Shown piece after piece: positions 12,525 through 56,684 of a stretch of DNA of 64,000 nt. Where the stretch lies: the NCBI RefSeq assembly GCF_900105065.1, contig NZ_LT629749.1, positions 558,001 to 622,000 on the forward strand. The letters are read 5' to 3'. Under the pieces are notes generated by a model, which saw only the letters and a program-made list of their open reading frames with translations, was not told the DNA's origin and ran no database searches. The position numbers and the translations under genes were made by a program. Origin of the DNA: Friedmanniella luteola. GTDB lineage: Bacteria; Actinomycetota; Actinomycetes; Propionibacteriales; Propionibacteriaceae. Each line of letters starts with the position of its first letter. Positions within the stretch are counted from its first letter, which is position 1.

Positions 12525-12541
12525 GCCACACTTCCTTTCCA

Positions 12542-12559
12542 CGGGCAGGTACGTGCCCG
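12542..12559. promoter_or_regulatory. Inverted repeat in the leader of the ABC ATPase gene
   Basis: CGGGCA and TGCCCG are separated by six bases, between the AT-richer promoter stretch (12560-12590) and the ribosome binding site on the minus strand. It could be a repressor site or a small leader hairpin. Confidence 0.35.
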
Positions 12560-12654
12560 ACGATCCGTAGTGGAAATAACTCACGCAGTGTGACACGGGC
12601 CACCCACCCCGGCAACCAGATCGGGCGCCCGGGTGCGGGGTGGCGGGGCGGCGC

Positions 12655-54882: not shown

Positions 54883-54988
54883 GACGGAACCGTAGCGCGC
54901 GCTCACTGTCCCGGATGGCGGACGCCGTTCCCACCTGTTGGGACCGCGATGTGCCCGCGTCGGAGACCCGCACGTAGGGTGAACCACG

Positions 54989-55098
54989 TTCATCCAGAGG
55001 GGATGAGGGAACGGCCCTTTGACTCCCCGGCAACCGCCTGGCCAAACCAGGAACGGTGCCAACTCCGCCGTGGTCGAACGTCGGCCACGACAGATGAA
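54989..55098 (+). promoter_or_regulatory. SAM-I (S-box) riboswitch
   Basis: All core parts are present in order: P1 strand TTCATC (54989-54994), AGAGGGGATGAGGGA, GGCCCTTTGA, CCCCGGCAACC, a CCTGG/CCAGG stem, GGTGCCAACTCC, a variable stem, and AGATGAA closing P1 at 55093-55098. The ribosome binding site GAAGGA follows at once and the ATG is 13 bases further, so SAM binding can regulate translation of the following gene. Confidence 0.95.
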
Positions 55099-55110
55099 GA
55101 AGGAACAGGA

Positions 55111-56412
55111 ATGACTGCGCTCGCAACCCCCTCGGCCACCTCGGCCGGGGTGCCCGCTCCCGCCGGTGTCCGGCCCGGAGCCTTCGGCAACGCCACCCAC
55201 CTCGTCTGCCGCGCCTGTGGCGAGAAGAGCTCGCTCGGCCCGTTCTACGCCTGTCTGGAGTGCTTCGGCCCGCTCGAGGTGGGCTACGACTTCCCGACCA
55301 TCACCCGCGCGCAGCTCGAGGCCGGTCCCAAGAGCATCTGGCGCTACGCCCCGCTGCTGCCGGTGCCCGCCGACATCGCCACCTTCCGCTCGACCGACCC
55401 GGGCTACACCCGGCTGCTCGACGCCGCGAACCTCGCCGCGGACCTGGGCCTGCGCAAGCTGTGGGTCAAGGACGACTCGGGCAACCCGACCCACTCCTTC
55501 AAGGACCGCGTCGTCGCCGTCGCGCTGTCCGCGGCCCGCGAGCTGGGCCTGCACGTGCTGGCGTGCCCCTCGACGGGCAACCTGGCCAACGCCGTGGCGG
55601 CCGCCGCCGCGCGGGCCGGCATCAAGTCGGTCGTCTTCGTGCCGGAGAACCTCGAGCACCAGAAGATCATCGCCTCCGCCGTCTACGACACCACGCTGAT
55701 CGCGGTGCAGGGCAGCTACGACGACGTCAACAAGCTGGCCAGCGAGATCGCCGCCGAGGAGGAGGGCTGGGCGTTCGTCAACGTGAACGTCCGCCCGTAC
55801 TACTCCGAGGGCTCGAAGACGCTGGCCTACGAGATCGCCGAGCAGCTGGGCTGGCGCATCCCCGACCAGGTCGTCATCCCGGTCGCCTCCGGCTCGCAGC
55901 TGACCAAGATCGACAAGGGCTTCGCCGAGCTGGTCACGCTCGGCCTGGTCGAGGACAAGCCGTGGAAGATCTACGGCGCCCAGGCCACCGGCTGCTCGCC
56001 GATCTCCCAGGCCTACCGCGCCGACCTCGACTTCGTGCCCCCGGTCAAGCCGGACACCATCGCCAAGTCGCTGGCCATCGGCAACCCGGCCGACGGGCCG
56101 TACGTGCTGGACGTCGTCCGCCGCACCGGCGGCCTGATCGCCGACGTCGACGACGAGACCGTCGTGCAGAACATCCAGCGGCTCGCCCGCACCGAGGGCG
56201 TCTTCGCCGAGACCGCCGGCGGCGTCACCGTGGGCGTCACCGCGAAGCTGATCGCCGACGGAGTCCTCGACCCCGACGCCGAGACCGTGGTGATCAACTC
56301 CGGGGACGGCCTCAAGACCCTCGACGCCGTCAGCGGCCGCGTCGGGCCCAAGACCACCATCCCGCCCCGTTACGACGCCTTCACCGACTTCTGGAAGGGG
56401 CTCGACCGATGA
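55111..56412 (+). CDS. thrC: Threonine-synthase-like PLP enzyme under SAM control
   Basis: This 433-aa PLP enzyme of the threonine synthase family has an N-terminal zinc-ribbon-like Cys set (CRACGEKSSLGPFYACLEC), the PLP Lys in NPTHSFKDRVVAVA and the phosphate loop CPSTGNLANAVAAAAARAG. It acts on O-phosphohomoserine. A SAM riboswitch in front and a sulfur-carrier gene overlapping its end (ATGA) are unexpected for threonine synthesis. They fit a methionine role, where the enzyme would make homocysteine with carrier-bound sulfur. Standard annotation would call it threonine synthase. Confidence 0.9.
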   Translation: MTALATPSATSAGVPAPAGVRPGAFGNATHLVCRACGEKSSLGPFYACLECFGPLEVGYDFPTITRAQLEAGPKSIWRYAPLLPVPADIATFRSTDPGYTRLLDAANLAADLGLRKLWVKDDSGNPTHSFKDRVVAVALSAARELGLHVLACPSTGNLANAVAAAAARAGIKSVVFVPENLEHQKIIASAVYDTTLIAVQGSYDDVNKLASEIAAEEEGWAFVNVNVRPYYSEGSKTLAYEIAEQLGWRIPDQVVIPVASGSQLTKIDKGFAELVTLGLVEDKPWKIYGAQATGCSPISQAYRADLDFVPPVKPDTIAKSLAIGNPADGPYVLDVVRRTGGLIADVDDETVVQNIQRLARTEGVFAETAGGVTVGVTAKLIADGVLDPDAETVVINSGDGLKTLDAVSGRVGPKTTIPPRYDAFTDFWKGLDR

Positions 56413-56684
56413 GCGCCACCGTCCGCATCCCGACGATCCTGCGCACCTACACGGCCGGGGCCGGTGAGGTGTCCGCCGACGGCGGCACCCTGGCCGAGCT
56501 GCTCGACTCGCTCGAGGCCCACCACCAGGGCATCCGGGCCCGGATCCTCGACGACGCCGGCCAGCTGCGGCGCTTCGTGAACGTCTACGTCGGCGACGAG
56601 GACGTCCGCTTCTCCGGCGGGCTCGAGGCCCCGGTTCCCGAGGGCGCGAAGGTCTCGATCATCCCGGCCGTCGCCGGCGGCTGA
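56409..56684 (+). CDS. MoaD/ThiS-family sulfur carrier protein
   Basis: This 91-aa ubiquitin-like protein ends in the Gly-Gly needed for thiocarboxylate formation (VSIIPAVAGG). The beta-grasp pattern is visible (RIPTILRTYTAGAGEVSADGGTLAELLDSLEAHHQG, RFVNVYVGDEDVRFSGGLEAPVPEGAKV). It resembles CysO-type carriers. The start overlaps the threonine-synthase-like gene by four bases, so the two proteins are made together under the same riboswitch. Confidence 0.9.
   Translation: MSATVRIPTILRTYTAGAGEVSADGGTLAELLDSLEAHHQGIRARILDDAGQLRRFVNVYVGDEDVRFSGGLEAPVPEGAKVSIIPAVAGG

Follow-up and report, generated by a model that had tools for sequence, protein, structure and literature searches.

A SAM-I Riboswitch and a Sulfur-Carrier Gene Flank a Predicted Homocysteine Synthase Labeled Threonine Synthase in Friedmanniella luteola

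Results

An S-box riboswitch, a threonine synthase-like PLP enzyme, and a ThiS/MoaD-type carrier protein form a single unit in Friedmanniella luteola. Judging from its sequence and that of its relatives, this operon is very probably that of a MetM/MetO homocysteine synthase directly controlled by SAM. Given the RNA switch, the carrier partner, and the distribution among relatives, the product of the gene labeled threonine synthase in databases almost certainly makes homocysteine, the precursor of methionine. The pair belongs to the already published MetM/MetO route, and what we add are the strict linkage to the S-box, an inverse pattern with MetX and MetY, and a set of genomes (29 of 98) whose metM gene has no carrier gene beside it.

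The unit lies on the forward strand of the window, meaning the whole stretch of 64,000 nucleotides that was analyzed. A SAM-I (S-box) aptamer spans positions 54987 to 55100, where the Rfam model RF00162 is matched over its full length (model positions 1 to 108) at a score of 80.4 bits (gathering score 44.4; E = 2.5e-17, calculated for the whole window). It precedes a metM-like gene (55111 to 56412) encoding a 433-residue, PLP-dependent member of the threonine synthase family, which is predicted to be an O-phosphohomoserine-dependent homocysteine synthase. The metO-like gene (56409 to 56684) encodes a 91-residue ThiS/MoaD-type sulfur-carrier protein with a C-terminal GG. The two genes share the stop/start overlap ATGA (56409 to 56412), which suggests translational coupling. 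Of the 69 surveyed genomes where a carrier adjoins metM, 29 (F. luteola counted) have the same 4-base overlap. All four elements had been named in the initial annotation, with outer coordinates (54989 to 56684) that prove accurate to within 2 bases, and each is borne out by Rfam, by NCBIfam and Pfam profiles, or by the sequence itself. Elsewhere in the window, an msiK RNA leader (RF01747, 60.7 bits) is found on the reverse strand at 12528 to 12584.

The metM aptamer is the sole S-box found in the 4.7-Mb genome of F. luteola. At E values up to 0.05, no methionine-related RNA was found at the metX-metY, hom-thrC-thrB, or cysO regions, or at two further loci for PLP enzymes of Cys/Met metabolism. 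In the cmscan alignment, the 3′ strand of P1 (55093 to 55100) runs into the likely Shine-Dalgarno sequence GAAGGA (55099 to 55104), which ends 6 nucleotides 5′ of the metM ATG. Because P1 ends within this sequence, a SAM-stabilized P1 would abut or cover the Shine-Dalgarno, and the segment from 55093 to 55104 is the candidate switch. In a predicted fold, the GG of GAAGGA (55102 to 55103) pairs with the CC at 54984 to 54985, 5′ of P1.

Across 99 metM leaders, the median distance from the aptamer end to the start codon is 12 nucleotides, a figure that retains nine rows where an ATG inside the P1 strand GATGAG was taken as the start (gap -7, an artefact) and two (G100 and G132) where the aptamer as aligned ends early (gaps of 244 and 257 nucleotides). 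None of the 99 leaders has a run of five T residues between aptamer and start codon, nine of these rows having no gap to examine. The short gap and the lack of a five-T run make translational control a more likely mechanism than a terminator, with SAM binding and switching predicted from the aptamer sequence. Three leaders from one genus (L127, L133, and L136, from G111, G100, and G132) seem to hold a long insertion within the aptamer. In G100 and G132, more than 200 nucleotides separate the aligned aptamer end from the sequence GATGAGGA, which resembles the usual P1 3′ strand, and the match in G111 spans 242 nucleotides.

Sequence profiles place MetM in the threonine synthase family. The protein scores 265.8 bits with the thrC model TIGR00260 (cut-off 167.1) and carries the Pfam domain PALP, but falls short of PRK08197 (281 bits, cut-off 303). 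Since the canonical ThrC of F. luteola also exceeds the TIGR00260 cut-off (287.6 bits), MetM and ThrC cannot be told apart by this model. A genome search with MetM gave four matches, namely MetM itself, a second threonine synthase (34% identical), and two proteins of lower similarity. The gene for the second threonine synthase sits between hom and thrB, just where the initial annotation had proposed looking for one. The refuting case that it had named, with metM as the only thrC of the genome, is hence not what we find.

Both proteins share the motif SFKDR, whose lysine (K131 of MetM, codon at 55501 to 55503) is predicted from their alignment to bind PLP, the role known for it in this family. 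They differ in an N-terminal stretch with four cysteines (C33, C36, C48, and C51; 55207 to 55263) that resembles a zinc ribbon and may bind metal. These cysteines are invariant in 28 aligned sequences, and the extension that carries them is missing from ThrC. The four cysteines and the motifs STGNLA, RPxYxEGSKT, and ETAGG occur in 97% or more of 96 MetM sequences (those of at least 395 residues, which leaves out 5 shorter ones of 101). At the same positions ThrC has no extension and reads STGNTS, DNRLEGQKT, and EPASA. Thus MetM does not have the loops of canonical ThrC, for which the F. luteola protein is the sole reference.

Relatives named as or placed in Streptomyces are 60 to 66% identical to F. 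luteola MetM, which in our tree joins Kribbella (100/97), with Nocardioidaceae as their neighbors (98/78). The tree, built with ThrC and two paralogues, was set aside as a measure of the split between MetM and ThrC owing to a ThrC branch length of 10, and was used for the order among MetM proteins only. Two ThrC-like paralogues, in G059 (L157, 37% identical to MetM) and G095 (L158, 34%), have the four cysteines with other loops.

To gauge how widely the arrangement is conserved, MetM was sought in the genomes of the class. With an E-value limit of 1e-60, it has a match in 241 of 374, a count that includes a few remote paralogues. In a detailed sample of 138 genomes, a limit of 1e-55 gave 103 genomes with a match. 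We kept 101 of these (59 to 100% identity) and dropped two genomes with best matches of 35% and 38% as paralogues, along with five second matches at 34 to 39%. An S-box lies on the same strand and no more than 309 nucleotides upstream of the MetM match in 99 of the 101 genomes, and in the other two (G015 and G067) a contig end cuts off the 5′ part. The linked S-boxes of G100, G111, and G132 score only 47 to 49 bits, which still exceeds the gathering score. The 138 genomes yielded 109 S-box rows, and 10 of these are not beside a MetM match, although one of the 10 (G076) precedes a MetM gene cut by the contig end. The same linkage appears in all 20 loci that were chosen for spread and scanned from a set of 80 named loci. 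Some named loci are the same records as surveyed genomes, so that the two sets are not independent.

The distribution of MetM is inverse to that of the direct sulfhydrylation enzymes. By the thresholds used, 73 of the 138 genomes have MetX and 74 have MetY. One MetY match is partial and below its family cut-off, and all MetX matches, that of F. luteola included, are below the TIGR01392 cut-off of 500 bits. Among the 101 genomes with MetM, 41 have both enzymes, one has MetX only, two have MetY only, and 57 have neither. Among the 37 genomes that do not have MetM, the corresponding numbers are 30 with both, two with one of them, and five with neither. MetX is thus present in 42 of 101 genomes with MetM and 31 of 37 genomes that do not have it (Fisher P = 8e-6, uncorrected for shared descent and with some genomes incomplete). 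As the survey of these routes covered MetX and MetY, a genome with neither may still have a route besides MetM, for instance through MetA or MetZ. In a genus placed with Streptomyces by two of its members, five of nine genomes have neither MetX nor MetY.

One could propose that MetM is a second threonine synthase that a SAM riboswitch controls, perhaps so that threonine and methionine are kept in balance where their pathways part at O-phosphohomoserine. The TIGR00260 score fits this proposal, and excerpts of one report credit a cyanobacterial homologue with threonine synthase activity in vitro (PMC12172450). However, F. luteola already has a canonical thrC in a hom-thrC-thrB cluster, the MetM loops differ from those of ThrC at positions conserved among MetM proteins, and the gene is present in 57 of 101 genomes where metX and metY were not found. 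Moreover, we know of no role for a sulfur carrier in threonine synthesis. We therefore put aside threonine synthase as the function of MetM and regard this proposal as very improbable. F. luteola MetM may nevertheless have threonine synthase side activity, as judged by analogy with the Microcystis aeruginosa homologue.

Even more remote is the idea that MetM resembles a cysteine or cysteate synthase with another substrate, so that the S-box would act on general sulfur supply. This would accord with the kinship of MetO and the CysO carrier of the same genome (58% identity) and with a match to the cysteate synthase model, albeit a weak one (59.3 bits, cut-off 324.9). The matches of MetM to threonine synthases, enzymes that act on O-phosphohomoserine, are far better, and the genome already contains a mec-cysO-cysM cluster.

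Synthesis of homocysteine, by comparison, is the function suggested jointly by the S-box upstream of MetM in 99 of 101 genomes, the separate clade of its carriers, and the 57 of 101 genomes with neither MetX nor MetY. The same three findings favor the view of the initial annotation that the pair is a methionine pathway and that the thrC label is wrong. Against the homocysteine assignment stand the general models that name MetM a threonine synthase, the M. aeruginosa homologue with its threonine synthase activity in vitro (PMC12172450), the other methionine routes encoded by F. luteola, and the 29 of 98 relatives that have no adjacent carrier.

Evidence from the carrier proteins bears on the source of sulfur. 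MetO ends in AVAGG and matches the Pfam family ThiS with 52.3 bits. The nearest solved chains are 4n6e_B, from the ThiS/MoaD family, and 3dwg_C, which bears the name 9.5 kDa culture filtrate antigen cfp10A and which we take to be mycobacterial CysO. A genome search with MetO returned MetO and one other carrier, the CysO of the mec-cysO-cysM cluster. In a tree from an alignment of 92 columns, the 69 carriers beside MetM and 27 CysO proteins (26 plus that of F. luteola) fall on opposite sides of one branch (100/99), and F. luteola MetO falls with the carriers beside MetM, apart from its own CysO.

A carrier gene lies no more than 700 nucleotides downstream of metM in 69 of the 98 genomes having the metM 3′ end, three more genomes being cut there. 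It is also downstream of metM in 69 of the 80 named loci, and the remaining 11 include records of short length. The initial annotation was right about a carrier partner beside F. luteola metM, but this partner is not universal among relatives. Of the 29 genomes with no adjacent carrier, 27 have a carrier match elsewhere, and in 26 the best one adjoins mec and cysM and so is of the CysO type. The remaining match, in G015, is weak and falls on a fragment. Completeness is 82% and 84% for the two genomes with no carrier match.

The 69 adjacent carriers end in GG (54), GGC (13), GGA (1), or GGCA (1). Where the end is GGC, the gene seems to encode a carrier-cysteine adduct, and activation would then need a Mec-type protease. 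Of the 26 CysO proteins in genomes that do not have an adjacent metO (L159 to L184), 15 have 2 to 32 residues past the first GG, and such tails would presumably need cutting by Mec before activation. The CysO of F. luteola itself ends in GGA. In two cysO genes from different families, L165 (G085) and L178 (G111), the C-terminal VT[VI]LPAVAGG is repeated after a linker of about 10 residues, which places a second GG after the first. The repeat copies are alike at 27 and 28 of 33 bases. Such a repeat could ensure that a tailed carrier still has a GG end, or it could be an assembly artefact.

For the genomes with no adjacent carrier, roughly 30% of those with MetM, we tentatively suggest that a single CysO feeds both CysM and MetM. 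We give this suggestion slightly less than an even chance because 10 of the 26 CysO-type genomes contain another, weaker match to a carrier (E = 1e-13 to 1e-16 in five genomes, 1e-5 to 1e-3 in the other five) that could serve instead. If CysO is shared, the split of sulfur between cysteine and methionine would be set by competition for one protein thiocarboxylate, and the metM S-box would be the valve on the methionine side. The two carriers of F. luteola are separate lines, which would insulate the cysteine and methionine pathways from each other.

The genomes with no adjacent carrier also leave some room for an unlikely variant of the scheme, in which MetM makes homocysteine with free sulfide besides or in place of the carrier and MetO is an accessory. 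MetY is known to use sulfide. In excerpts of PMC12172450, sodium sulfide is described as an addition made to mimic MetM activity. However, a CysO-type carrier of the mec-cysO-cysM cluster could serve in trans in 26 of these 29 genomes, and the carriers beside MetM, all of which have the GG, make up a conserved group of their own.

F. luteola also has genes for other methionine routes. Its metX gene (PRK00175, 477 bits against 331) adjoins metY (TIGR01326, 621 against 495), and it encodes a cystathionine gamma-synthase (652 bits against 513) as well as a cystathionine gamma-lyase-like protein that is below its cut-off. One MoeZ, of the carrier-activating type, is present (PRK07878, 692.8 bits against 647), as are hom, thrB, and the mec-cysO-cysM cluster, where Mec was called by eye and because relatives keep it next to cysO and cysM, there being no NCBIfam match at E = 1e-40. 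With MetX, MetY, and cystathionine gamma-synthase available, deletion of metM alone need not give methionine auxotrophy. The simple auxotrophy that the initial annotation had proposed as a check is thus probably not to be expected, and a single metM deletion would probably be uninformative in this species.

Based on these data, we infer both the chemistry and the regulatory mechanism of the operon. MoeZ would adenylate the GG end of MetO, leading to its thiocarboxylate. MetM would take the O-phosphohomoserine that Hom and ThrB make for threonine and eliminate its phosphate on PLP, whereupon the gamma carbon would accept the carrier sulfur to yield homocysteine. When SAM is abundant, the S-box would close P1, whose 3′ strand runs into the Shine-Dalgarno, so that translation of metM would fall and that of metO would follow by coupling.

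Discussion

Among the matches listed in literature searches on MetM, on carrier sharing, and on S-boxes before thrC in Actinobacteria, PMC12172450 was the sole one tied to Streptomyces MetM. Excerpts of PMC3766115, PMC1262725, and PMC13257386 do not mention MetM. According to the excerpted portion of PMC12172450, MetM is a homocysteine synthase in Streptomyces (Hasebe et al. 2024, Appl Environ Microbiol 90:e01247-24) with homologues in cyanobacteria, converts O-phosphohomoserine to homocysteine, and prevents methionine auxotrophy in S. albulus. The same portion reports a SAM riboswitch upstream of S. albulus metM but not of the M. aeruginosa gene, whose product is 51.6% identical to S. albulus MetM and whose neighbor resembles S. 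albulus metO. In vitro, the M. aeruginosa homologue is described there as a threonine synthase and deaminase, not clearly a homocysteine synthase, and its assay gave an unassigned product peak near methionine (PMC12172450).

According to a survey from 2005, methionine operons in Actinobacteria have no conserved RNA structures upstream (PMC1262725). One possible reason could be the threonine synthase label of the gene that follows the S-box. Because a general model gives this label to the widespread metM gene, metabolic models may show methionine synthesis as missing and threonine synthesis as duplicated. The S-box, the four-cysteine extension, STGNLA, and RPxYxEGSKT could serve as markers for labeling MetM.

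Compared with known systems, MetM shares its family, the PLP lysine motif, and presumably the substrate O-phosphohomoserine with canonical ThrC, but differs from the F. luteola protein in its N-terminal extension, in its loops, and in two-thirds of its residues (34% identity). The MetX/MetY route likewise ends in homocysteine, which it makes from O-acetylhomoserine and free sulfide, and the F. luteola metX-metY locus differs from metM in that no RNA switch was found there. CysM/CysO/Mec provides the parallel for the carrier, as it also consists of a PLP enzyme fed by the thiocarboxylate of a GG-ending protein. However, CysM is from another PLP branch and uses another substrate, no S-box was found at its locus, and its carriers, despite the identity of CysO and MetO noted above, are across the well-supported branch from those of MetM.

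The closest counterpart is the MetM/MetO system of S. albulus, known to us by description, which has the same combination of a ThrC-like enzyme, an upstream SAM riboswitch, and a gene for a ThiS/MoaD-type carrier, with metO presumably downstream of metM. The sulfur for S. albulus MetM reportedly comes from the MetO thiocarboxylate, and many Streptomyces are reportedly devoid of the canonical methionine genes. F. luteola differs in also having metX-metY and cystathionine gamma-synthase. Its predicted MetM/MetO route would therefore run beside MetX/MetY rather than in its place and, on paper, appears dispensable.
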